This document shows positions 9,127 through 20,856 of a DNA stretch of 20,856 nt, in pieces. This DNA is from a virus, in the IMG/VR virus record IMGVR_UViG_3300032323_000220, positions 1 through 20,856 of that record. One strand, written 5' to 3'. The translations under genes and the position numbers were made by a program. Numbering within the stretch: position 1 is the first letter of the stretch; each line of letters begins with the position of its first letter. The notes below the pieces were generated by a model that worked only from the letters and a program-made list of their open reading frames with translations, did no database searches and had not been told where the DNA came from.

Positions 9127-10422
9127 ATGAAACTAAATCCCATCTATGAAGCATTGACTTACGGTTACCGAAATATGGATAACGGTAAACTTTATCCAGG
9201 ATTTCATAAAACCAAAGAAGAGCATGATGGATATATCTTCTCTTCTAAAGATGAAGAGTTAGAGACTGCTCATCAGTTCGGTCGTTTAGAAAAGGTTATT
9301 CTGTGGCGTGGCTCTGTTGAAGAGTGTATCACGCTAGAACATTACATTCTAAAGAATAATAATGCCATCACAAATGACTTGTTTTATAACAAGTCAGTTG
9401 GTGGTGGTGTTGGTTTGGTTAAAGACTTCTCGAACCTAACCGATGTTATGAAGACCATCGCCAACGAATGGGTTAAGGGTACTGATCCAGTTTGGGAAAC
9501 TGCGCAACATGATGTTGATGTTGACGATGTTAAAGAAATCAAAAGTAAGATCGACTCTGGATTTTACATAAAAATTCTCCAAGACGTAGTCACCATTCTT
9601 GCTCTTCCAAAGAATCAGGTTCGTGAAGAAGTTTACGACCCTAAGCACGTTGAAGATATTAAGAATGAGATGTTGAATAACACGGCAAAGGCACGTGAAG
9701 TTGTTCAACCTGTTATCGTTGTCGTTTTCCCAGATGGTCGTATGGAAATCGTTGACGGTAACCACACCATTCGTGCAGCACACGAAGCTGGTTGGACTAA
9801 GATCAAAGTCATCTATATCAATTCAACTGACTTCAATAATAAACAGTGTAACATTGACTGGTTCGGTTACTACATGAACCACCAAGAGATGAAGAAGAAA
9901 GGTAATACTGATGGTGACTGTAAGAAAGCCATCGCACGTTACGCAACTACTCATCCTCAGTTTGAACTTGGTACACACGACTTCAAAGAATCGTTCATGA
10001 AGGCATATTCTTTCTTCTGGACTCGTGTTAAGATTGCTAAATGTATTGAATCTGTGATGCGTCACCAAGCCACTCAACAAGCTATGGCTAATCATAACTT
10101 CAAACTGTATAGCGATTCTGAATTGAAAGCTATCGTCCAGAAAGAAGAGAGTAAAGATTCTGAACTTGCTGTTGTTAGTATTTCAGCGAGTAGCTGTTAT
10201 AACTCGGGGTTGGGTGCTATCTTGAATAAGATGGGTGAGATCTCAGAGAAAAGTGGCAAGCGTTGTACGAAGGGTACGATTATTGTTTCTTGCCGTTCAT
10301 ACGACGACTACATAAACAAGTCTGGTCACGATGGTAAGTTGAAGCGTAACCTAAAATTGTATGCGCCAGATGGTGTTGAGATCAAGACTAAATGGTTGAA
10401 AGAATTTGTTAAGACTAAGTGA
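9127..10422 (+). CDS. GIY-YIG-like / ParB-like fusion protein
   Basis: A 431-residue protein with two recognisable parts. The N-terminus (about 10-78) resembles a GIY-YIG nuclease. YGYRNMDNGKLYPGFHKT stands in for the GIY...YIG strands, DGYIFSS and a FG-LEKVILW strand follow, and E71 in TLEHYILK is the likely metal-binding glutamate. The middle (about 155-235) is ParB/sulfiredoxin-like: a regulatory Pro-containing strand (QPVIVVVFPDG), then MEIVDGNHTIRAAHEAGW with the DGNHT-xR phosphate-binding motif at 210-216, then IKVIYI. ParB-fold proteins bind or hydrolyse NTPs, and some relatives phosphorylate serine. The C-terminal 190 residues, mostly helical, are not recognised. The gene has its own sigma70-type promoter, lacks a strong SD and is coupled to the next gene by TGATG. 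It could be a nuclease or DNA-binding regulator, or a nucleotide-using enzyme of the modification pathway. Confidence 0.75.
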   Translation: MKLNPIYEALTYGYRNMDNGKLYPGFHKTKEEHDGYIFSSKDEELETAHQFGRLEKVILWRGSVEECITLEHYILKNNNAITNDLFYNKSVGGGVGLVKDFSNLTDVMKTIANEWVKGTDPVWETAQHDVDVDDVKEIKSKIDSGFYIKILQDVVTILALPKNQVREEVYDPKHVEDIKNEMLNNTAKAREVVQPVIVVVFPDGRMEIVDGNHTIRAAHEAGWTKIKVIYINSTDFNNKQCNIDWFGYYMNHQEMKKKGNTDGDCKKAIARYATTHPQFELGTHDFKESFMKAYSFFWTRVKIAKCIESVMRHQATQQAMANHNFKLYSDSELKAIVQKEESKDSELAVVSISASSCYNSGLGAILNKMGEISEKSGKRCTKGTIIVSCRSYDDYINKSGHDGKLKRNLKLYAPDGVEIKTKWLKEFVKTK

Positions 10423-11441
10423 TGGATTATAGACTACAAGAAAATCGACGTGAAGCGTTCATCCGCTGGTACGCATGGTCTCTGAAATACGATGACTGTG
10501 ACCCAGCGGTATGGGCGACTAACTACTTAAACAATCGTTACGAACATAACGATGAACAGCGACTGTGGCTTTGCTGGCTCTATGGTAATACTTACTACCT
10601 TCCAACTGCGTGGGTTCTCATGAACGAGTTTCCTGACTTTGAGTTGGCAACGGTAGAGCGTATTACTAATTGGAACACAGCCAACTACAAACGACTGCGC
10701 TATCAGACTGATACAAAGTGGAACAAAGGGCACTTGCCTACAATGTTCGAGTCGTACCAGTCTTTTATTGGTGAACATACTCAACGAGAAAAACTGGAGT
10801 CATATTATGGAGACAATGAAGAACAAAACTTTACAAACCTGTGGAATGTTCTTAAAGGTAGCTTGCATAAATTCGGTCGTTATTCTACTTGGTTCTATAT
10901 GCAACATCTTAAGCACACTGCTGGTGTTGCTGTTGAGCCCACTAGTCTTATGTTGGACGATTATGATGGCTCTCGCTCTCATCGTAATGGACTACTTTAT
11001 GCCCTTGGACAAGAAGACGATGTGGATCGAAAACTCACTGCACTGGAGTATGGAAGACTTGAAGCGCACGGCAGAAGTATTCTCGAAGAGGTACGACATA
11101 GATTCCCAGAAGTGGCAAATCAAGTAGACTTCTTTACAATGGAAACTTGCTTGTGTTCATTCAAGAAGATCTTCCGTGAGAAGCATGGTCGTTACCTTGG
11201 TTACTACTTGGATCGTCAATGTGAAGAGATTGAGCAGTGCGCATCTGATGGTTGGTATGGTATTGATTGGGATGTTATGTGGCAAGCACGCAATGAAACA
11301 ATAGACTTGCGTCTTGACCATCACCGTGGTATTGATAAAGAAAAGTTTCCTAACTTTATTAGATCAGGTAGAATAGAAAACTTGGAATGGTTCTTTGATG
11401 ACGAAGAACCTCAACTTATTGGCTTGGAGGCATTTGCATGA
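10422..11441 (+). CDS. Probable amino acid:DNA transferase-like protein (aGPT-pyrophosphorylase, clade 3-like)
   Basis: A 339-residue, mostly helical protein rich in Trp, Tyr and charged residues. The N-terminal third, with NRYEHNDEQRLWLCWLYGNT, YYLPTAWVLMNEFPDFE (near 59-75) and FESYQSFIG, resembles phage proteins of the alpha-glutamyl/putrescinyl-thymine pyrophosphorylase families. These are now called amino acid:DNA transferases, and replace the pyrophosphate on 5-(pyrophosphoryloxymethyl)uracil in DNA with an amine. I make this match from memory of the family pattern, so it is tentative. Support comes from context: the TET/JBP dioxygenase upstream, and a P-loop kinase fused by an ATGA overlap directly downstream, the same partnership known in thymidine-hypermodifying phages. 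The C-terminal part contains CLCSF, EEIEQCASDGWYGIDWD and a conserved-looking HHRGIDKEKFPNFIR. The start is ATG 10422, overlapping the upstream TGA. Confidence 0.6.
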   Translation: MDYRLQENRREAFIRWYAWSLKYDDCDPAVWATNYLNNRYEHNDEQRLWLCWLYGNTYYLPTAWVLMNEFPDFELATVERITNWNTANYKRLRYQTDTKWNKGHLPTMFESYQSFIGEHTQREKLESYYGDNEEQNFTNLWNVLKGSLHKFGRYSTWFYMQHLKHTAGVAVEPTSLMLDDYDGSRSHRNGLLYALGQEDDVDRKLTALEYGRLEAHGRSILEEVRHRFPEVANQVDFFTMETCLCSFKKIFREKHGRYLGYYLDRQCEEIEQCASDGWYGIDWDVMWQARNETIDLRLDHHRGIDKEKFPNFIRSGRIENLEWFFDDEEPQLIGLEAFA

Positions 11442-11977
11442 GAAAGATTATTGCGGTAGGTGGTCAGCCTGGAACTGGCAAGACCACTCTTTTCCGAAAG
11501 TACATGGAAGGTAAAACTTGGGAAAAGGTTGAACCCTTAAAGATGCTCCCTGCTCTATACTGCAAAGAGATCGATACCTATATCCTAGGCAAGTATGAAG
11601 ACGGCGAAACCTTTGCTGGTACTGATAGACTGTCCATGGCAGTTCAACCTGTAGCTACAGAGTTTGTTAAGGGTACGACTTCCAACATCCTTTTTGAAGG
11701 CGATCGAATCTTCAACCAGTCTTTCCTAGAGATGTGTATGGATCTGCCTGATACAGATCTTCAGGTAGTCTATTTGAAGGTGCCAGACGAGATGCTTAAA
11801 CAGCGTTATGCAGATCGAGGCTCCGACCAGTCTGAGACTTTTCTAAAAGGTCGGGCTACTAAATATAGTAACCTACTATCAAACTTTGACCTTATGTCCT
11901 ATATTACTGAGTTTGTAAACACTAACTTAGAGGAGCAGGGGAAGGTAATTGCATTCTTGGAGAAACACTTAGGCTAA
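11438..11977 (+). CDS. P-loop kinase (candidate hydroxymethyl-pyrimidine DNA kinase)
   Basis: A 179-residue P-loop NTPase with Walker A GGQPGTGKTT (residues 8-17). A GTDRLSMAVQ segment, a hydrophobic strand ending in ILFEGDRIFN (Walker B or substrate-binding region) and a VVYLKVPDEMLKQRYADRG strand-helix follow. SETFLKGRATKY probably forms the arginine-bearing LID. The size and layout are those of small nucleotide/nucleoside kinases, but the GTDRLS and EGDRIFN blocks are what I associate with phage kinases encoded beside thymine-hypermodification genes, where the enzyme pyrophosphorylates or phosphorylates 5-hydroxymethyluracil in DNA. A good SD (GGAGG near 11426) precedes the ATG, which overlaps the previous TGA (ATGA). 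P-loop kinase is secure; DNA-base substrate is inferred from neighbours. Confidence 0.78.
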   Translation: MRKIIAVGGQPGTGKTTLFRKYMEGKTWEKVEPLKMLPALYCKEIDTYILGKYEDGETFAGTDRLSMAVQPVATEFVKGTTSNILFEGDRIFNQSFLEMCMDLPDTDLQVVYLKVPDEMLKQRYADRGSDQSETFLKGRATKYSNLLSNFDLMSYITEFVNTNLEEQGKVIAFLEKHLG

Positions 11978-12708: not shown

Positions 12709-12730
12709 GGTTCAAACTAAGGGTATATTG

Positions 12731-13762
12731 ATGGCTGACTTGGGAAGTAAAGCAACGGACGGAAGATTGTCCTTTGTAAAATACGTTACGGAAAATAAGC
12801 GTTTCGCCGAAATCGAATTTGAAATCGAGAAGGGGAAAAGCACAGTCGTATACACAAAGAAGGGAACCAACTTAGTAGCTGGAACTAAAGAGTTCAAAGC
12901 TGGCACTAAGATTAAGATCCTTGATCAAAAGATGCACGAGATAGCCAAGCTGAAGCTGGCTTCTGTTCAGATTGGTACAGTCAAAGGTTTCATTCCAATC
13001 AATACAATCCGTAAACCAACTGGTGGTAACGGTACTCAGTATGAAGACGAAGTCGTTGATGCAATCAACGCATATATTCTAAAGGCTGGTGGCAAAGTTG
13101 ACATCAAGCTAAAAGGTGATTCGAAAACCTACAAAGACATTGCGTATGCAGTGAAGGTTGATTCGCCAATTAAAGCCAAAGCTGGTGTCAAGGGTGACCC
13201 AAAGGCTGACATTATCTTATGTAAGGATATCAAAAACCCAACAGCAGCTGGTTCAATCTACATCTCTCATAAAAAAGAAGGTGGTCCAGAAGCGTTCCAA
13301 CAGTACGGTGGTTTGTCTGAGCAGTCAGGTGAACACATCTACAATCATCCGTTGGTTCAAAAGTTTCTTGGGGAGGTTGCCAAAGTTCTTGGTAGTTCTG
13401 ATCAACTACCTAACCCAGTGCTTGGTGAGTTCAAAGACGACACTCTGGCAAACATGTCCATTTATGGACCAGACTACGGCAGAGCGTACTCGCTGCAACA
13501 TACACAGTTGATCGGTCAAGGTAAGCCAGTCTTCAAAGTGACTGGCAAAGTTTCAGAACTATCGTTCAGCAGCCACATGAGTTTGTCTGGCGATTTGTCT
13601 CACTTTACTGGTGGATACTTGCCTGTATTTGGCGCAACATTCCGTGCTGGTCGTGGCTTTACTTATAAGGGCAAGCGTTACAATGGCGCACGTGTTGCCA
13701 TCTACCCACATAAACTAATGGCTACTCGTGGTGGCTTGATTATTGTAAAAGTTAAGAAATGA
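12731..13762 (+). CDS. Late protein with possible SH3-like and PD-(D/E)xK-like domains
   Basis: A 343-residue protein from the ATG at 12731, with SD AAGGG (12719-12723); a TTG one codon upstream is less likely. Residues about 35-95 are beta-rich and end in VKGFIPINTIRKP, similar to bacterial SH3-like domains. Residues about 103-195 have the order expected of a PD-(D/E)xK nuclease fold. A helix contains E105 (QYEDEVVDAINAYI), then DPKADIIL with D160, then the strand YISHKK with K181 in place of the usual ExK, then AFQQYGG. The C-terminal 150 residues are Gly/aromatic-rich and may be beta-structured. It is the first gene after a late-promoter-like motif and is ATGA-coupled to the ligase-like gene. 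Either a packaged nuclease-like protein or a structural component would fit. Domain calls are tentative. Confidence 0.65.
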   Translation: MADLGSKATDGRLSFVKYVTENKRFAEIEFEIEKGKSTVVYTKKGTNLVAGTKEFKAGTKIKILDQKMHEIAKLKLASVQIGTVKGFIPINTIRKPTGGNGTQYEDEVVDAINAYILKAGGKVDIKLKGDSKTYKDIAYAVKVDSPIKAKAGVKGDPKADIILCKDIKNPTAAGSIYISHKKEGGPEAFQQYGGLSEQSGEHIYNHPLVQKFLGEVAKVLGSSDQLPNPVLGEFKDDTLANMSIYGPDYGRAYSLQHTQLIGQGKPVFKVTGKVSELSFSSHMSLSGDLSHFTGGYLPVFGATFRAGRGFTYKGKRYNGARVAIYPHKLMATRGGLIIVKVKK

Positions 13763-14994
13763 AAACATTAAAGACATACATCGTAGAAGCCGAACAAAAC
13801 GTGCACATGGAGCACGTTGAAGACCTAGTATTCAATGAAGGTGTTGAAGGTACTCGCAAGGCAATCAACTTCCTAAGAGACCTGCGTGATATGCTAGCTG
13901 GTCACGGTTCAGCTAAAGTTACAGCAACTGTTAAGTGGGATGGCGCTCCAGCTATCTTTGCTGGTATTGATCCACGTGATGGTAAGTTCTTCGTGGCTAA
14001 GAAAGGTGTGTTCAATAAAGAGCCAAAGGTCTACAAGACTCCAGCTGATATTGATTCAGACACACAAGGTGACTTGGCAGTCAAGCTAAAGATCGCATTG
14101 GCTGAGTTCAAGAAACTTGGAATCACTAAGGGTGTGTATCAAGGTGACTTGATGTTCACTAAAGCAGACATTAAAAAGGAAACTATCGATGAAGTGGATT
14201 ATATTACTTTTCATCCTAATACTATCGTATATGCTGTACCAGCCAGTAGCGAACTTGCACGAAAAGTTAAAGCAGCGTCAATCGGAGTTGTCTGGCATAC
14301 TACATACACAGGAGCCTCCTTCGAAACCATGAGTGCTTCGTTTGGCAAATCAATCGTTCAACATATGAAGCAAGTGCCTTCTGTTTGGATGGATGATGCC
14401 AACTACAAGGACTACTCTGGTACTGCCACATTCACAGCAGCTGAGACAAAAGCAGTGACTGATATGTTGTCACGTGCAGGTACTTTGTTCCAAGGAATTA
14501 AGGCAGACACAATCAATGCAATCCACCAAGACCCAGACTTGTTGATGCTCATTAAGACATACAATAACTCAAAGGTTCGTGTTGGTGAACGAATCACTAA
14601 TCCAAAGGTTCACGTTCAAGGATTGTTCCACTGGATCTACGAGAGATTCCAGAAAGAGATTGATACAAAGAAAACAGAAAAGGGTAAGTCTGTTCAAGAA
14701 GAAAAGCGTAAGAAGATTCTTGCGTACTTTGCTAATCACGACCAAGATCAGATCGCAAAAGTTTTCGAATTGAGTAACCTAATTGCTGACATCAAAGCGC
14801 CAATTATCGCTAAGATGAATCAAGCTGGACACATCTCTACGTTTGTTAAGACAGCCAACGGATTCAAGACCACAGGTGTTGAAGGTTTCGTTGCCATTGA
14901 TCACTTGAAGGGTGGTGCTGTTAAGATCGTAGACCGTATGGAGTTCAGTTCAAATAACTTTAACCCAGAAATCATAAAGGGATGGCAGAGATGA
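13759..14994 (+). CDS. Nucleic-acid-ligase-like protein with T4-type capsid-targeting N-terminus
   Basis: A 411-residue protein. Its first residues, MKTLKTYIVEA, closely match the T4 internal-protein capsid-targeting peptide MKTYQEFIAEA, including a predicted prohead-protease site after E10 (I-V-E|A). The body resembles the covalent nucleotidyltransferase fold of DNA/RNA ligases. KWDGAPAIFAG (59-69) is motif I with candidate adenylated K59. GVYQGDLMF (125-133) is a possible motif III. EGFVAI (375-380) followed by VKIVDR (388-393) is a possible motif IV/V pair. A long helical insert (about 190-350) separates motifs III and IV, unlike standard ligases. The start overlaps the upstream TGA (ATGA), and the end overlaps the next gene in the same way. 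The combination suggests an enzyme packaged in the head and possibly injected. Ligase activity is inferred from motifs only. Confidence 0.75.
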   Translation: MKTLKTYIVEAEQNVHMEHVEDLVFNEGVEGTRKAINFLRDLRDMLAGHGSAKVTATVKWDGAPAIFAGIDPRDGKFFVAKKGVFNKEPKVYKTPADIDSDTQGDLAVKLKIALAEFKKLGITKGVYQGDLMFTKADIKKETIDEVDYITFHPNTIVYAVPASSELARKVKAASIGVVWHTTYTGASFETMSASFGKSIVQHMKQVPSVWMDDANYKDYSGTATFTAAETKAVTDMLSRAGTLFQGIKADTINAIHQDPDLLMLIKTYNNSKVRVGERITNPKVHVQGLFHWIYERFQKEIDTKKTEKGKSVQEEKRKKILAYFANHDQDQIAKVFELSNLIADIKAPIIAKMNQAGHISTFVKTANGFKTTGVEGFVAIDHLKGGAVKIVDRMEFSSNNFNPEIIKGWQR

Positions 14995-15353
14995 TTAGTT
15001 TCAAAGAATACCTACAAGAAAAGTGTGACTGTTGGACTGGCTACAAGCGAGTTCCAGGAACAGCGCCATGCGAAAAAGGTTCTTGCGTCAAGGAAGAATC
15101 TGACTTAGAAGAAGCAACTTACCAAGGTAAGAAAGTTCCACTAAACAAGCCAATGGCTGGTGATGTTAAGAAATCCAAAGTGTATGTGGATCCAGATGGT
15201 GATGGTAAAGCGCAGAAGGTAAACTTCGGCGACAAGAACATGACTATCAAGAAGAACATTCCTGCTCGTCGTAAGTCTTTCCGTGCACGTCATAACTGTG
15301 ATACTGCTAACGATAAGACAACTCCACGCTACTGGTCATGCAAGGCTTGGTAA
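14991..15353 (+). CDS. Small Cys-rich protein with capsid-targeting-like N-terminus and internal cleavage motif
   Basis: A 120-residue basic protein starting at ATG 14991 (ATGA overlap); an in-frame ATG at 14982 is possible but spoils the N-terminal motif. MISFKEYLQE (1-10) matches the aromatic/hydrophobic/E pattern of T4 capsid-targeting peptides. A Cys-rich stretch follows (CDCWTGYKRVPGTAPCEKGSC). KEESDLEE|A (34-42) comes next, a linker with a (L/I)xE cleavage site that recurs in the large protein at 18871. The C-terminal module has an Asp/Gly-rich turn (DPDGDGK), a strand VNFGDKNMTI and a basic RRKSFRARHNCD...PRYWSCKAW end with paired Cys, which may bind DNA or metal. The predicted mature product is the roughly 79-residue C-terminal basic domain. 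The function is not known to me. Confidence 0.78.
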   Translation: MISFKEYLQEKCDCWTGYKRVPGTAPCEKGSCVKEESDLEEATYQGKKVPLNKPMAGDVKKSKVYVDPDGDGKAQKVNFGDKNMTIKKNIPARRKSFRARHNCDTANDKTTPRYWSCKAW

Positions 15354-15366
15354 GAATATAAGATGG

Positions 15367-15376
15367 CTAAATAATA
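15367..15376 (+). promoter_or_regulatory. Candidate late promoter element CTAAATAATA
   Basis: Identical to the 10-mer at 12699-12708 and placed in the 42-base gap before the large nucleotidyltransferase gene, about 29 bases from ATG 15405. The gap has no hairpin and no sigma70 -35, consistent with a T4-style late promoter. Confidence 0.5.
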
Positions 15377-15404
15377 TACAGTTACAATTTTATAGATGGG
15401 TCTT

Positions 15405-17924
15405 ATGAAGAAATATAGTCAGTTCCTAAAGGAACTACCTTCAAAATCAGTCGTATTCGCTTTTGGACGTTTCAATCCTCCAACGTCAGGACATGAACTC
15501 CTAATCAAAGCAGTCAAGAAGCTGGCAGCTACTAATAAAGCTGAGCACGCCATCTATGCATCCAAGTCACAGGATGCCAAAAAGAATCCCCTAACTGTAG
15601 ACAAAAAGGTTCATTATCTGAACCTGATGTTTCCAAATACACACTTCGTTGCAGCGAACCCTAATGTTCGCACATTCATCGAAGCTGCTAAAGAACTAAA
15701 CAAGAAGTATAAGAACTTGATCATGGTTGCTGGTAGCGATCGTGTTCCAGAATATGAGAGAATTCTTAACACCTATAATGGTAAAGAATTTCACTTCGAC
15801 ACAGTTCAAGTAATCTCTGCTGGTGAACGTGACCCTGATGCTGATGATGCATCTGGTATGTCTGCCAGTAAGATGCGTGCTCTTGCATCAAAGGGTGACT
15901 ACGCTCAATTCAAACATGGTCTACCATCCACAATGCGTGACATTGATGGTCGTCGTTTGATGAATGATGTCCGTCAAGGTATGGGCTTAGAAGTAGTAAA
16001 AGAACAAATCAATCTCGTCAAGGACGATCTGCGTGAGCAGTATTTCCGTGGCGAGATTTTCAACATGGGCGATATAGTTGAGTCAGCTGGCGTTAAATAT
16101 GAAATCGTCAAGCGTGGTTCCAATCACCTATTGTTAAAGAACACAGAAGGTAAACTTGTTTCAAAGTGGATCCAAGACGTTCAGTTGTCCGAAGATGTAG
16201 CAGTTGGTTATGCTCCAGCTGAATTGACATTCAACGGTTATACAACTAAGAACCTTCATCATTCTGAAGATGCTGTAAAAGCATTTCAACAAACTATTCA
16301 GCGCTCTGGCGATTCAAACCCAGAAGCAGTTCTTGCTGCTCTAAAAGAGACTGATACATATATGGGTCTTAACGACCTACACTTGGCGCAACGTAAAGAT
16401 CCAACTGAGCAAGAAATTGCTACTTGGATTCAAGCACACGATGCTGCCAAATCCCATCTAGAATCTATTGGTGAGTTTATGCACCACCGTGATTATTGGG
16501 ACAACCACATGCATGAATTAGAAGACATGTTGTCAACATACGACGTAGCAGGACAAGATGAGTTGAGAGACTCACACGAACCAGAGGGTACTATGCTTCC
16601 AGAAGAACTATCAGATAAAACACTCAAGTCTCAAGACAAAATCAAAGTTGCACGAATCATCGCTACAATGCTTGGTATCGAGAATGCCGAGTCTTCAGCA
16701 AATCCAGAGAACCTAGTGAACCTAGCACTACGCAAAGTTCGCACTAAGACTCTGAACCCAGACTCACTACGAATCCTTGATCAAATGCTTAAGTTAGCTG
16801 ATGAAGTTTCAATCAAGTATGATGCTACTCTGAAGCCAACTAAACTAAAAGAAGCTGCTGTAGATGACTCAACTGTTGAAGTTAAGAAAGATTCTACTTA
16901 CAATGCAGCAAAGGGTAATCTGCGCTACTCTGACTACATCAAGTTAAAGGCAATGAATACCCATACAAAACCTGGACACAGCATGGTTGGTCCGCACCAT
17001 GATGATAGCGATCGCCGTCAGCGTATTCAATACGTCAGCGAAGAAGAACAGCTAGACGAAATCTCCAACAAACTTGCTGGTAACTACTACGGTGCTGTTG
17101 TTAAACAACACATGAAGAAAGTTGGTGGTGTTCGTCACAACATGTACGATCGTATGGAAAAAGATCTTGGCGCAAAGCGCAAGCAAGGTGTTGATCGTGC
17201 ACTTGATCGTATCACTGGTGCTCGTAAGACCAATGAAGCGATTGAGCCAATGGATCCAGTCTGCGAAGAATGTGGAAAAGTTCCATGCGTTTGTGACGAA
17301 CAACAACTAGGTGCAAACAATGCCAAGATTGATGTTGTTGGCGAATCAATGGAAGCGACTGCAACTCCACACGCTATCGTTGACATGGCAGCTTATGAAG
17401 CTGACTATGAGAACAACATGGAAGGTGAAGAGATCTCTGATGAAGATCTAGATTCTATGGCAGCTGAGATTGACGATCTAGATGACGTCATTGATGCCTA
17501 CGATGACGAAGAACTAGCCATCGTTGATGACGAGTCTGGCGAAGAAATCGAAGACAAGATGAATGAGTCTGCTTTGATGGAAGTTCTATCTCGTATGGAG
17601 CGTATGAAGGCTAAAGCAAGATTTGCTCGCACTGCAGCAAAGCGTGAGCGTTCAACTAAGATTGCGCTACGTTCATACTCTAGCAGTGCAAAGATTAACA
17701 AACGTGCACGTCGCCTTGCCATTCAATTGATGAAGAAGCGTCTGTTGAAGGGTCGTGACCCAAGCAAGATTCCAGTGGGCGAAAAAGAACGCATTGAGCG
17801 TACAATCGAGAAACGTAAGTCAGCAATTGGTCGTTTGGCCATGCGTTTGGCTCCACGTGTTCGTGGTATTGAAAAAGCCAGAATGTCTCATAAGAAATTC
17901 ACTAAAGCAGCACCGACTGTATAA
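15405..17924 (+). CDS. NMNAT-like nucleotidyltransferase fused to long processed-looking virion/internal-protein region
   Basis: An 839-residue protein; the ATG at 15405 is chosen because MKKYSQFLKE then fits the capsid-targeting pattern, while 15396 adds three residues. Residue numbers below count from 15396. Residues 20-190 form a nucleotidyltransferase domain of the NMNAT/NadR type: GRFNPPTSGH (24-33) is the HxGH-like motif, VAGSDRVPE lies at 111-119, and SASKMR (156-161) is the ISTxxR-like motif. The middle (about 200-540) is helical and unrecognised, followed by the linker SEEEQLDE (548-555) and a basic helical module (560-612). A Cys cluster CEECGKVPCVC (623-633) comes next, then a strongly acidic segment (678-722), then a very basic Arg/Lys-rich C-terminal helical domain (728-838) suited to binding DNA. 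L-x-E sites between modules suggest prohead-protease processing. NAD-related activity is inferred from motifs only. Confidence 0.82.
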   Translation: MKKYSQFLKELPSKSVVFAFGRFNPPTSGHELLIKAVKKLAATNKAEHAIYASKSQDAKKNPLTVDKKVHYLNLMFPNTHFVAANPNVRTFIEAAKELNKKYKNLIMVAGSDRVPEYERILNTYNGKEFHFDTVQVISAGERDPDADDASGMSASKMRALASKGDYAQFKHGLPSTMRDIDGRRLMNDVRQGMGLEVVKEQINLVKDDLREQYFRGEIFNMGDIVESAGVKYEIVKRGSNHLLLKNTEGKLVSKWIQDVQLSEDVAVGYAPAELTFNGYTTKNLHHSEDAVKAFQQTIQRSGDSNPEAVLAALKETDTYMGLNDLHLAQRKDPTEQEIATWIQAHDAAKSHLESIGEFMHHRDYWDNHMHELEDMLSTYDVAGQDELRDSHEPEGTMLPEELSDKTLKSQDKIKVARIIATMLGIENAESSANPENLVNLALRKVRTKTLNPDSLRILDQMLKLADEVSIKYDATLKPTKLKEAAVDDSTVEVKKDSTYNAAKGNLRYSDYIKLKAMNTHTKPGHSMVGPHHDDSDRRQRIQYVSEEEQLDEISNKLAGNYYGAVVKQHMKKVGGVRHNMYDRMEKDLGAKRKQGVDRALDRITGARKTNEAIEPMDPVCEECGKVPCVCDEQQLGANNAKIDVVGESMEATATPHAIVDMAAYEADYENNMEGEEISDEDLDSMAAEIDDLDDVIDAYDDEELAIVDDESGEEIEDKMNESALMEVLSRMERMKAKARFARTAAKRERSTKIALRSYSSSAKINKRARRLAIQLMKKRLLKGRDPSKIPVGEKERIERTIEKRKSAIGRLAMRLAPRVRGIEKARMSHKKFTKAAPTV

Positions 17925-17932
17925 GGTAAACA

Positions 17933-18418
17933 ATGGCTCTTAAACACATAATCAAACACACTGAAACAGAAATTATTTTCAAGTGTTACATAACTGCCAC
18001 AGGCGGTGGTGATATTGACTTATCGTTACAAAACGATATGACTAAATCTACTCAAGTATATGTGGCACCAACAAGTATCCCAGTTGAAACTGACGGACAC
18101 TTTGCAGAATACACTGGTTCTAGAGTTTATATCACTGGTATCTGGTGGGGAACTAAACCTGGTAAACAATTAGATATTACAAGAATTTTAGATACAGCCA
18201 CAAATCCAGACACTGTTCACAGTCACTATTATTTGAATGGCAATGGATTTTATGAATACGCTGACTTTACAGATCGTGTTTATGCCAATAAAGACATTCG
18301 TTTGACTTTTGATGGTGAAGGACATTGCATTATCCGTTTACGTAAAGAAGGTTGGGCTCCTAAAGTTGAAAATGCTCAATTCGGTTCTTATGATGACCCA
18401 ACCCAAGTAGGAAGCTAA
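17933..18418 (+). CDS. Small beta-rich probable virion protein
   Basis: A 161-residue protein that I do not recognise by family. It is predicted beta-rich, with alternating strands (TEIIFKCYITAT, STQVYVAP, GSRVYITGIWWGT, IRLTFDGEGHCIIRLRKEGW) and no helix, signal peptide or membrane segment. That profile, together with late gene neighbours, fits a head, neck or tail decoration protein. An AAGG SD overlapping the upstream stop lies 6 bases before the ATG. It has no capsid-targeting-like N-terminus (MALKHIIKHTETE), unlike the proteins around it, so it is probably assembled on the outside or in the tail. It is followed after one base by the Dps-like gene, so the two are co-transcribed. Confidence 0.72.
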   Translation: MALKHIIKHTETEIIFKCYITATGGGDIDLSLQNDMTKSTQVYVAPTSIPVETDGHFAEYTGSRVYITGIWWGTKPGKQLDITRILDTATNPDTVHSHYYLNGNGFYEYADFTDRVYANKDIRLTFDGEGHCIIRLRKEGWAPKVENAQFGSYDDPTQVGS

Positions 18419-18419
18419 C

Positions 18420-18869
18420 ATGAATGAACTAACAACTACACTAAAGGTGCTATTGGCAAACCAATTTGTTGCCTACTTCAAAGCACAAACATATCACTGG
18501 AACACAGAAGGTATTGAGTTCCCTCAGTACCACGAATTCTTTGGCGATCTATATGCAGACTACTATGGTGCTATTGATCCAGCTGCTGAGTACCTACGTG
18601 TTCTTGATGAGTATGCTCCAATCAGCTTGATGGAAATGTATAACTACAAGACTATCTCTGAAGACTCTGCAAAACCTGCTACCCTAGAGCAGATGCTTAC
18701 CAATATCGGTGGAGCCAATCAAGCACTGATTGAAAACCTAAATAAGTTATTCGACGTTGCTTCACAAGCAAATGAACAAGGTATTGCTGATTGGGCTGCT
18801 GGTCGTTTAGACGCACACAAGAAACATGCATGGATGATTCGTTCGTGCTTAAAGAAATCTGGGGAATAA
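18420..18869 (+). CDS. dps: Dps/ferritin-like DNA-protection protein
   Basis: A 149-residue four-helix-bundle protein of the Dps family, which oxidises and stores iron and shields DNA. Family motifs are AQTYHWNTEG (22-31), YHEFFGDLYADYYGAIDPAAEYLR (37-60, shown as a range) and the C-terminal helix DWAAGRLDAHKKHAWMIR. Against E. coli Dps, the spacing H26...H38...D53...E57 reproduces the ferroxidase ligands H51, H63, D78 and E82. The position equivalent to D67 is G42, with an Asp next to it at 43. It is shorter than E. coli Dps (167 aa) and lacks the Lys-rich N-terminal DNA-binding tail, though the C-terminus is basic. The SD AGGAAG precedes the ATG. Among late genes, it may be packaged or made late to protect phage DNA from oxidative damage. 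Confidence 0.88.
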   Translation: MNELTTTLKVLLANQFVAYFKAQTYHWNTEGIEFPQYHEFFGDLYADYYGAIDPAAEYLRVLDEYAPISLMEMYNYKTISEDSAKPATLEQMLTNIGGANQALIENLNKLFDVASQANEQGIADWAAGRLDAHKKHAWMIRSCLKKSGE

Positions 18870-18870
18870 G

Positions 18871-20856
18871 ATGCAATTCAAAAAATTTATGGAAGCGTTG
18901 AAGGGTAACCAACACAAGCTGGACAAGAATAAGAACGGCAAGTTGGATGCTGACGACTTCCAGAAACTTCGTAAAACTAATGAAGAATACGAAGAAATCA
19001 TGCAAGCACTAGATGAAGCATTGTCTACAGTAGACAAAGGCGAATACGATTACGAAGGTGCGATGGCTCGTACACAACTACAAACAATTTGTAGAAATGC
19101 AGAAGATCTTATTGATATGGTTAAGATGGACGAGAACATGCCAGAATGGGTTCAGTCCAAAATTACATTGGCTCAAGATTATATCTCTAGTGTAAGAGAT
19201 TACTTACAGTCAAGAAAAGAATTGGGTGAAGGTAAGACTCCTGGACTTTGGGATAACATCCACGCCAAGAGAGAAAGAATTAAAGCTGGTTCTGGTGAGA
19301 AGATGCGCAAGCCAGGAAGTAAGGGTGCTCCAACTGATGCAGCATTTAAAGCATCACAAAATGAAGAACTCGTAGTAGAAGAAAGTGATGCTTACGCCAA
19401 GTCTGAAGAGAACAAGCGTTCTGCTGATGCAGCAAAGAAGCAAGGCGATATGTTCGCACATCACCTACACATGGCTGATCACCACGAAAACCTAGCCCAA
19501 TGGCATGGTGAGAAAGGTCGTCATTCTACTGCAGATAGCCATGCTGAAAAGGCTGAGAAACATCATGAGCTTGCTATGCAGCACAAGATGAAAAAAGAAG
19601 AAACTGAATTAGACGAAGCTACTCCATACTACAACAAACCTTCTTGGATTAAGAAGATGTCTCAAGCTGCTAAGCAAGAACGTCTAGCACGTGAGAAGAA
19701 AGAAAAAGAAGCTAAGCCTCAAGTCAAAGAGCAATCAGAATTAGAAGAAGGCGAAGAGCGCATGGATCGTTCTGACTATAAAGTTTCTCCTTCTGGTCGT
19801 AAAACCCACAAACAAATCACATTTAAAGACGGTAGCACTACTGGCAACGAAAAGGAAGATGAGATGAAAGAAGAAAAGATGTCTGACGCTGATATGAAAG
19901 AGCGTGAGCGTATCGTTAAAGGTATGAAGAAAAACATCTCTGGATTCAAAGCTAAGTACGGTGAGCGTGCAAAAGAAGTTATGTACGCTACTGCAACTAA
20001 GATGGCTATGAAAGAAGAGTCTGAACTAGAAGAACAAGCGCCAGTTGCTCCTTCTCTAATGAAGCACCGTATTTCTGTCACTGTTTCTGATCCTGACCAT
20101 ACAATGGTTTCTAAGCGTAAAGAAAAGATCCAAAAGACTGTAATCGTTACTCATAGCGATAACAAACAAGGTGCTCAGAAAGTTGGCGAGAAGTTTTATA
20201 AGAAAAAGGGTTATGTTGTTCATGACTCCCACCATGCTGGTATGGTGAACGAAGAAAAGCTAGAAGAAGCATTAGATCCAAGTGAGATTGCTGGCAATCC
20301 AAAGATGTATGATGCATCTACTGTAAAAAAAGCATACTACCATAAGAGTACCAGTGCCAGCGATAAAGAATCTCTTGCACGTCACCTAGATCGCCATCAT
20401 GGTAACAAAGAGTGGCGTAAACCAGTTAAAGAAGAACTCGATGAGAAGTTTATCAATGGTCGTGAGTATGCATCTCACGGTTTGATGCACCCAGACCACG
20501 CTGCTCATGCCGTCCATAAAGTTACTGGACAGAGCATTGACTTCTACGCTCACGGTACTGGTGACAAAGTTGAAGGTAAAGTGACTAAGAATGATGGTAA
20601 GTCTGTTCATATCAAAGACACTAAAGGAACTACACACAAATTCAAAGTTCAGCGTGGTCTACCACAGCAAAAGAATGAAGAATTGAATTTCGACGAACAA
20701 GGAAACCTTATGGCAGAAAAATTAAAGTTCAATGACTTCATCGCTAAGATGAACGAACAACTACTAGAATACGAATCAGATTCTTCTGGCGTATATCGTC
20801 ACACCAAGAAAGCCACTTACGGCACTTCTTATCAGGGCGACGATGATGAAGATGAG
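18871..20856 (+). CDS. Large modular internal-head polyprotein-like protein (3' end beyond window)
   Basis: The frame is open from ATG 18871, one base after the dps stop, for 662 codons to the window edge, with no stop. The N-terminus MQFKKFMEALKG loosely resembles a capsid-targeting peptide. Modules, in order: an EF-hand-like loop DKNKNGKLDADD (18-29); a helical region; a His-rich repeat region (196-239); SWIKKMSQAAKQERLAREKK (258-277); a DYKVSPSGRKTHKQITF strand module (302-318); a basic helical module ending YATATKMAM (about 335-380); a beta/alpha module (395-455); a His/Lys module (470-518); and a small beta-barrel-like module (526-595). Modules are separated by KEETELDE (242-249), KEQSELEE (286-293), KEESELEE (381-388), NEEKLEE (460-466) and KEELDE (520-525), all with L-x-E. 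This looks like a prohead polyprotein cut by a gp21-type protease. It has no recognisable enzyme domain. Confidence 0.85.
   Translation, partial: MQFKKFMEALKGNQHKLDKNKNGKLDADDFQKLRKTNEEYEEIMQALDEALSTVDKGEYDYEGAMARTQLQTICRNAEDLIDMVKMDENMPEWVQSKITLAQDYISSVRDYLQSRKELGEGKTPGLWDNIHAKRERIKAGSGEKMRKPGSKGAPTDAAFKASQNEELVVEESDAYAKSEENKRSADAAKKQGDMFAHHLHMADHHENLAQWHGEKGRHSTADSHAEKAEKHHELAMQHKMKKEETELDEATPYYNKPSWIKKMSQAAKQERLAREKKEKEAKPQVKEQSELEEGEERMDRSDYKVSPSGRKTHKQITFKDGSTTGNEKEDEMKEEKMSDADMKERERIVKGMKKNISGFKAKYGERAKEVMYATATKMAMKEESELEEQAPVAPSLMKHRISVTVSDPDHTMVSKRKEKIQKTVIVTHSDNKQGAQKVGEKFYKKKGYVVHDSHHAGMVNEEKLEEALDPSEIAGNPKMYDASTVKKAYYHKSTSASDKESLARHLDRHHGNKEWRKPVKEELDEKFINGREYASHGLMHPDHAAHAVHKVTGQSIDFYAHGTGDKVEGKVTKNDGKSVHIKDTKGTTHKFKVQRGLPQQKNEELNFDEQGNLMAEKLKFNDFIAKMNEQLLEYESDSSGVYRHTKKATYGTSYQGDDDEDE
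19594..20445 (+). repeat. Recurring acidic KE(E/Q)(S/T)EL(D/E)E linker in the polyprotein-like gene
   Basis: Five related short coding segments, at 19594-19617, 19726-19749, 20011-20034, 20248-20268 and 20428-20445, encode an acidic linker ending in L-(D/E)-E. The first three share the eight-residue pattern KE-(E/Q)-(S/T)-EL-(D/E)-E; the last two are shorter. The segments are not evenly spaced and the DNA differs by codon, so conservation is at the protein level. Related copies occur at 15090-15113 (KEESDLEE) and 17037-17060 (SEEEQLDE). Confidence 0.75.
20699..20712 (+). promoter_or_regulatory. Possible internal ribosome binding site and in-frame start
   Basis: AAGGA at 20699-20703 precedes an in-frame ATG at 20710 by 6 bases, inside the last gene. 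Initiation here would give a product starting MAEKLKFNDFIAKMNEQ, whose KFNDFIAKMNE looks somewhat like a capsid-targeting peptide. This may be an old gene boundary where two proteins fused, or a nested start. Confidence 0.4.

Follow-up and report, generated by a model that had tools for sequence, protein, structure and literature searches.

Capsid-targeting-like N-termini on predicted head-cargo genes of a T4-like aquatic phage

We analyzed a 20,856-base fragment of a T4-like aquatic phage (IMG/VR record IMGVR_UViG_3300032323_000220), hereafter the window, which is the whole of that record and does not contain the head operon. A DNA polymerase gene is followed there by UvsX, a replicative helicase and a gene block of unknown function, these names being assigned from sequence and position; at the DNA level, known phages give just short matches of 74-79%, to cyanophage polymerase and helicase genes. 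Three consecutive genes of the block begin with MKTLKTYIVE/A (13759), MISFKEYLQE/K (14991) and MKKYSQFLKE/L (15405), with a slash marking the predicted cut. A preliminary description of this DNA had pointed out these N-termini, comparing them with the capsid-targeting sequence (CTS) that the protease gp21 removes from T4 internal head proteins. The shared spacing that it proposed (aromatic, aromatic-aliphatic, E) is indeed found, as the three N-termini fit the T4 register of positions 4, 7, 8 and 10. According to a T4 review, IPIII genetics assigns capsid targeting mainly to residues 4 and 7 of this register and processing to residues 8 and 10 (PMC9026906). A fourth N-terminus that had been listed as a looser fit, MQFKKFMEA, is also present, in the gene at 18871, with the cut read as MQFKKFME/A. 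This gene is not adjacent to the tagged trio; a gene at 17933 and a ferritin/Dps gene at 18420 intervene, both without such an N-terminus. In the product of gene 12728-13762, a CTS-like LSFVKYVTE/N of looser fit lies behind a 13-residue extension, and its last position is E or D, with D in three of six relatives. Coordinates are collected in Table 1.

Two of the tags depend on the start codon chosen, since the longest open reading frames (ORFs) of the second and third genes begin three codons upstream. MISFKEYLQE requires a start at 14991 and not at the first ATG (14982). The start at 14991 has the better ribosome site, with AAAGGG at good spacing, overlaps the stop codon of the preceding DUF6267 gene (14992-14994) as ATGA, and is of a kind kept by relatives. 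MKKYSQFLKE likewise requires 15405 and not 15396; in many relatives no start further upstream could be used, and a 15405-type start is kept. With these starts, the exact register was written as the pattern M..[FYLIW]..[FYWL][LIVMF].E, and start-class sites were compared with internal ATGs. The pattern matched 3/34 start-class sites and 0/169 internal ATGs of the window. The motif scan of start sites suggested in the preliminary description, run on the window, T4 60-110 kb, HTVC008M, S-CREM2 and the relative G001, found it enriched at starts (14/957 start-class sites versus 4/2709 internal ATGs). In the T4 piece it picked IPII, IPIII and gp24 and missed IPI. In G001 (166.8 kb), the three start-class matches fall on precisely the counterparts of the three tagged neighbours of the window, and three more matches lie at internal ATGs. 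Under three null rates, the chance of at least three matches among the 34 start-class sites of the window is 1.9e-5, 0.0011 or 0.0077, the highest value coming from a null that includes true tagged genes.

Relatives conserve the same positions. From 79 of 80 IMG/VR relatives (L056 was dropped, its chosen start lying inside the protein) we obtained 57 distinct DUF6267 N-termini, in which position 4 is L, F or Y in 56, position 7 is Y or F in 54, position 8 is I, L or V in all 57, and position 10 is E in 56. Positions 3, 6 and 9 are variable, and position 5 is also kept (K in 55/57). A more distant DUF6267 set (L117-L184, that is, 68 of 80 loci, with 12 at the close end omitted because they mostly repeated the first scan) has the exact register in 41 of its 58 distinct N-termini and a looser one in 4. 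The N-termini of the NMNAT-like protein encoded by the third gene follow a similar pattern: among 41 distinct sequences, E is at position 10 in 33 and at position 9 in 6, and distant relatives (about 40% identity) begin with forms such as KSFSDYLTE. Untagged DUF6267 proteins start as MAKNTHLEH (S-SZBM1), MSKNTHLEH (S-WAM1 and P-HM2) or MKNTHLEH (DSL-LC02), which is just behind the predicted cut of tagged relatives (E/AKNTHMEH). As they start at the predicted mature N-terminus, the tag comes and goes as a block that ends at the predicted cut site. DUF6267 of S-CRM01 and S-PM2 is also without a tag, and that of C48C1 is tagged (MLDFKNFITE).

Table 1. Positions in the window of the tags, proteins and modules discussed
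Feature	Positions	Strand
CTS-like N-terminus MKTLKTYIVE of DUF6267 protein, predicted cut E10/A11	13759..13788	+
CTS-like N-terminus MISFKEYLQE of small protein	14991..15020	+
CTS-like N-terminus MKKYSQFLKE of cytidylyltransferase/NMNAT-like protein	15405..15434	+
Looser CTS-like start MQFKKFME/A of putative mosaic precursor	18871..18897	+
CTS-like LSFVKYVTE near N-terminus of gene 12728-13762	12767..12793	+
DUF6267 (phrog_455) protein, predicted RNA-ligase-like fold; K59-W-D-G62 and E375-G376 invariant	13759..14994	+
NMNAT/PPAT-like protein with long tail: acidic stretch, then basic C-terminus	15405..17924	+
Predicted HIGH-superfamily nucleotidyltransferase domain, residues 13-197	15441..15995	+
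Basic C-terminal region of NMNAT-like protein, net +27 over 120 residues	17562..17921	+
Small two-module protein: tag, CWxGY module, internal LEE site, YQGKxV module	14991..15353	+
Internal LxE site L39-E40-E41/A42	15105..15113	+
Putative mosaic precursor, cut by contig end: EF-hand-like KGNQHKLD module, phrog_16028 peptide, other modules	18871..20856	+
Acidic E-x-[LIVM]-x-E linkers of putative mosaic precursor, residues 117, 166, 246, 290, 331, 385, 462, 521/522	19219..20454	+
GLWDNIHAKRERIK peptide (phrog_16028), after LGE/GKTP	19240..19356	+

The preliminary description had expected enzyme-like proteins among the tagged set, and predicted structures agree with this for two of them. The DUF6267 model, built with the window and 56 of 160 DUF6267 loci as input, has a mean pLDDT (predicted local distance difference test score) of 85, with residues 1-15 below 50. 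In VIA-align, nearly all of the 50 matches listed were RNA or DNA ligases. The best alignment, to 1xdn, had a moderate Z of 8.9 (root-mean-square deviation 4.1, 188 aligned), and further RNA ligases were 5cou (Z 8.3), 6vtd (Z 8.2) and T4 Rnl2, 1s68 (Z 8.0). The top Foldseek matches were DNA ligases (best E 0.061), and a sequence search against solved structures gave no useful match for DUF6267. K59-W60-D61-G62 and E375-G376 are invariant in 57 DUF6267 sequences; we take these to correspond to ligase motifs I, K-x-(D/H)-G, and IV, E-G. At the place of motif V, K-x-K, DUF6267 has K389-x-V-D-R393, as judged by sequence position. DUF6267 is thus predicted to have an RNA-ligase-like fold, an assignment that is new here; no paper naming DUF6267 was found in our literature search. 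For the NMNAT-like protein, the window and 52 of 71 distinct sequences were the input, and the domain model (mean pLDDT 84.9) places the beginning of the fold at residue 13, just past the predicted cut. Foldseek matched it to NadD (E 2.9e-6), VIA placed PPAT (Z 13.9) and NMNAT (Z 13.2) within 1 Z of each other, candidate substrates being NMN, pantetheine phosphate and CTP, and a sequence search against solved structures gave one weak match (E 0.009). The product of gene 15405 is accordingly modelled as a Rossmann-like HIGH fold of NMNAT/PPAT type. We count both the low pLDDT of DUF6267 residues 1-15 and the start of the NMNAT-like fold at residue 13 in favour of a removable tag. In S-PM2 (L188 1498-3273), a single untagged protein combines DUF6267 with the NMNAT-like domain, a fusion suggesting that the two work together.

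The same type of predicted cut site recurs within other proteins of the locus. The small protein of the window reads MISFKEYLQE/KCDCWTGYKR...EESDLEE/ATYQGKKVPLNKPM. That of the close relative L011 reads MLSFKEFIQE/ATYQGKKVTLNKPM; the segment between both cut sites is gone and the tag abuts the next module. BLAST edge positions proved too fuzzy as module borders, and fixed-pattern contexts were used instead. In the loci retrieved, the YQG module is preceded by [LIVM]xE/[AS] in 15/15 distinct contexts, five after a tag and ten after an internal acidic linker; a sixteenth, in a VrlC protein of L008, was dropped as a chance match. The EF-hand-like KGxQHKID module has E at the same place in 19/19 contexts, and the GLWDNIHAK peptide, which directly follows the tag in most relatives, follows LGE/GKTP in the window. 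The 18871 protein contains nine copies of the linker pattern E-x-[LIVM]-x-E versus 1.7 in local shuffles. As it was here that the pattern had first been spotted, copies were then counted in ORFs of relatives, excluding the window: 47 mosaic ORFs held 159 copies versus 36.6 expected, and 150 control ORFs held 119 versus 65.3. A Pfam scan of the 18871 protein, whose gene runs off the contig, gave weak EF-hand matches only. Tag ends and internal LxE sites thus appear interchangeable, a feature that is new here, and the internal linkers are best read as gp21 sites equivalent to the tag end. As the same modules occur behind a tag in some cases and behind an internal acidic LxE linker in others, we read the 18871 protein as a likely mosaic precursor that is loaded by its tag and diced by gp21; given that equivalence, a single tag would load each mosaic protein as a precursor, which would then be cut to pieces. 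Many T7-like marine podoviruses also encode the GLWDNIHAKRERIK peptide (phrog_16028), which some records annotate as ribonucleotide reductase.

The preliminary description had named a gp21-type protease gene as a further thing to look for. Such a gene is present among relatives but not in the 20.9-kb window. PF03420 (gp21) was found in six of eight relative contigs, all six of at least 105 kb, the two misses being 63-kb fragments. In G001 it sits between portal-like and scaffold- or capsid-like ORFs (named by eye), and gp21 is annotated in HTVC008M and S-CREM2.

Published virion proteomes of other phages connect the register to particles. In S-CREM2, 52 of 219 proteins are reported from virions (PMC10665884, Table 3). 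Proteins with the exact register are on this list in 5/6 cases versus 47/213 of the others (Fisher p 0.0032; p 0.00024 when compared with non-structural detections only). The five are the SAM hydrolase gp6, gp13, the APH-like kinase gp14, gp136 and the cytidylyltransferase gp154; the sixth, gp175, is not on the list. By contrast, ranking S-CREM2 proteins by the linker motif separates virion proteins poorly, with 8/14 in the virion among the matches listed. For S-SZBM1, the virion table includes the NMNAT-like protein 140 (MRFRQFIIE/A) and the mosaic protein 139, and does not name their untagged DUF6267 neighbour, 141 (PMC9146016, Table 1). Members of the NMNAT-like family are also reported from virions of S-SM1, S-SCSM1 and S-CBWM1 (PMC3037559, PMC9602691). 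The CWxGY module occurs in two virion proteins, S-SZBM1_139 (E 6e-12) and S-CREM2 gp160 (E 1e-6), with no other match at E <0.1 among the 227 proteins scanned (219 of S-CREM2 and eight of S-SZBM1); the YQG, LWDNI and KGxQHKID modules gave none below E 0.05 in the same proteins. S-CREM2 gp12 (L005 7704-10313), a listed virion protein annotated as Cas9, contains a CTS-like RFASFMAEA at residues 18-26, and its annotated start may lie upstream of the true one.

Cumulatively, we favour the view that these genes encode head cargo of a T4-type phage, targeted by the tag, cut by gp21 and ejected with the DNA, and we put its probability at about 0.8. The register, its conservation, gp21 in the long relatives and the virion proteomes of two other phages support the head-loaded cargo set put forward in the preliminary description; for the window phage, targeting, cleavage, ejection and a role of the cargo on entry are what we infer from these sequence patterns. 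The removable ten-residue N-terminal CTS would attach the protein that carries it to the prohead's scaffold core, a gp21-type protease would cut after E10, and the mature protein would remain in the head and be ejected together with the DNA. The cargo would comprise the RNA-ligase-like DUF6267 protein, the NMNAT/PPAT-like nucleotidyltransferase, whose tail is first acidic and then basic, and mosaic precursors. As small modules of the latter are separated by further LxE sites for gp21, one tag could load several peptides. More tentatively, and at less than even odds, the gp21 cut site may serve as a universal joint: LxE/A would both end the tag and link modules, which would shuffle between single cargo and precursors, and the ligase-like and NMNAT-like proteins would enter with the DNA as a repair kit.

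Several observations weigh against head loading. The exact-register pattern matched only an ORF outside the locus in HTVC008M and no coding sequence in the S-SZBM1 piece, where the NMNAT tag is one residue short. In S-CREM2, looser patterns gave 5/8 (p 0.020) and 5/13 (p 0.17), and the exact register, which derives from T4 genetics, was applied after these results had been seen. The S-CREM2 authors concede that abundant enzymes of this kind may have co-purified with, and not been separated from, the virions (PMC10665884), and the accessible account of S-CREM1 proteomics, with 14 proteins, names none as NMNAT. Virion presence of the NMNAT-like family and of two mosaic proteins is known from other phages, and our search found no mass-spectrometry data for a phage with a tagged DUF6267. 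No DUF6267 protein is reported from a virion in the literature examined, and the relatives S-CREM2 gp87 (profile E 4.9e-17) and S-SZBM1_141, both untagged by the pattern, are absent from the published lists. In addition, gp21 is missing from the record itself, and the LxE count in the NMNAT-like tail is not above chance.

The alternative that survives best, though we consider it unlikely, is that the tag targets to the head but stays uncut in this lineage, the LxE linkers of the mosaic proteins being flexible acidic spacers. The linkers are rich in E, LxE in the NMNAT tail is at chance level, and a T4 CTS in which position 10 is D is reported to target without being processed (PMC9026906), D being the residue in half of the six relatives of the 12728 protein. 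Cleavage is favoured by the near-invariant E at position 10 of DUF6267 N-termini (56/57), by module borders that fall at E/A behind tag or linker alike, and by untagged DUF6267 orthologues (MAKNTHLEH, MSKNTHLEH, MKNTHLEH) that start at the predicted mature N-terminus. Less probable still is a docking tag for another complex, such as the replisome, the membrane or the baseplate. The genes do adjoin gp43, UvsX and gp41, and the order of polymerase, UvsX, helicase, at least one other gene, DUF6267, small protein, cytidylyltransferase-like protein and mosaic proteins recurs with variations in Pelagibacter phage HTVC008M, Stenotrophomonas phage DLP6, Methylophilales phage Melnitz and cyanophage S-SZBM1. 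However, the tagged S-CREM2 proteins gp6, gp13, gp14 and gp136 are listed in the virion and not encoded near the polymerase, and the same pattern picks gp21 substrates in T4. Chance, or the commonness of short N-termini rich in Lys and aromatic residues, could account for gp175 and for the HTVC008M ORF outside the locus, but it is very improbable given three such neighbours together, conservation confined to the predicted columns in both large sets of relatives, and the exchange of tag ends with internal sites.

Other genes of the window were also annotated. The untagged ferritin/Dps-like gene (18420-18869; PF00210, E 1.6e-19) lies amid the predicted cargo genes; a homologue is present in 44/80 IMG/VR loci, and only three phage records of the named collection gave matches. 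The C-terminal 28 residues of the 17933-18418 product (ending FGSYDDPTQVG) match a G001 ORF just upstream of gp21 (57% identity, E 7e-8); as this ORF belongs to the head operon of G001, the product may be a head protein. The 9127-10422 product has a ParB N-terminal domain (PF02195, E 5.3e-8). Gene 11438-11977 encodes a P-loop nucleotide kinase (PF18751), which also matches phrog_800, "terminase small subunit" (E 1e-15), a name that is probably misleading.

CTS-based loading itself is already known from T4, and T4-type internal-protein loci were reportedly treated by Comeau et al. in 2007. Like IPI-III, the proteins studied here combine a ten-residue N-terminal tag in the 4/7/8/10 register and an E/A cut with unrelated mature parts and, in long relatives, with gp21. 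Unlike IPI-III, the predicted cargo is RNA-ligase-like, NMNAT/PPAT-like or made of mosaic modules, lies beside replication genes, and has the cut-site type recurring within precursors. In T4, gp67 and gp22 are precursors of internal peptides. The mosaic proteins resemble these, as well as head proteins of phiKZ and SPN3US (PMC9026906), in being putative precursors cut at several short Glu-ending motifs, and differ in that the pieces are exchangeable modules common to several genes and the junction is the tag junction. The polyvalent proteins that phages and conjugative elements encode are described as multi-module, thought to be virion-carried and processed to units, often by their own metallopeptidase (PMC5512222); here, by contrast, the prohead protease would cut and the modules are small. 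The third gene belongs to the same family as the NMNAT/cytidylyltransferase (T4-GC190) reported in virions of the cyanophages S-SM1, S-SCSM1, S-CBWM1, S-CREM2 and S-SZBM1. The accessible text of those papers proposes virion carriage and names no loading signal, which is what we propose here. The T4 review suggests that T4-like phages use the CTS for diverse cargo (PMC9026906). Our literature search found no description of CTS-based loading in cyanophage-like or related phages; the sole paper containing both "capsid targeting sequence" and "cyanophage" was a T4 review, with cyanophage just in its reference list. New here, besides the apparent interchange of tag ends with internal sites and the predicted DUF6267 fold, is the connection drawn from the tag to enzymes already known from virions.

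If head loading holds, RNA-ligase-like and NMNAT-like enzymes could act before phage gene expression, for example against tRNA-cleaving or NAD-depleting defences. Both tRNA and NAD are described as targets of host defence (PMC9503650), and the delivered enzymes could mend tRNA that has been cleaved and restore NAD. T4-like phages occur in very large numbers in water, and many of the proteins in their virions have no known function. A tag that predicts cargo would make head contents readable in genomic and metagenomic sequence, and would explain why metabolic enzymes recur in cyanophage virions. What such phages inject would thereby become testable using existing mass-spectrometry data.

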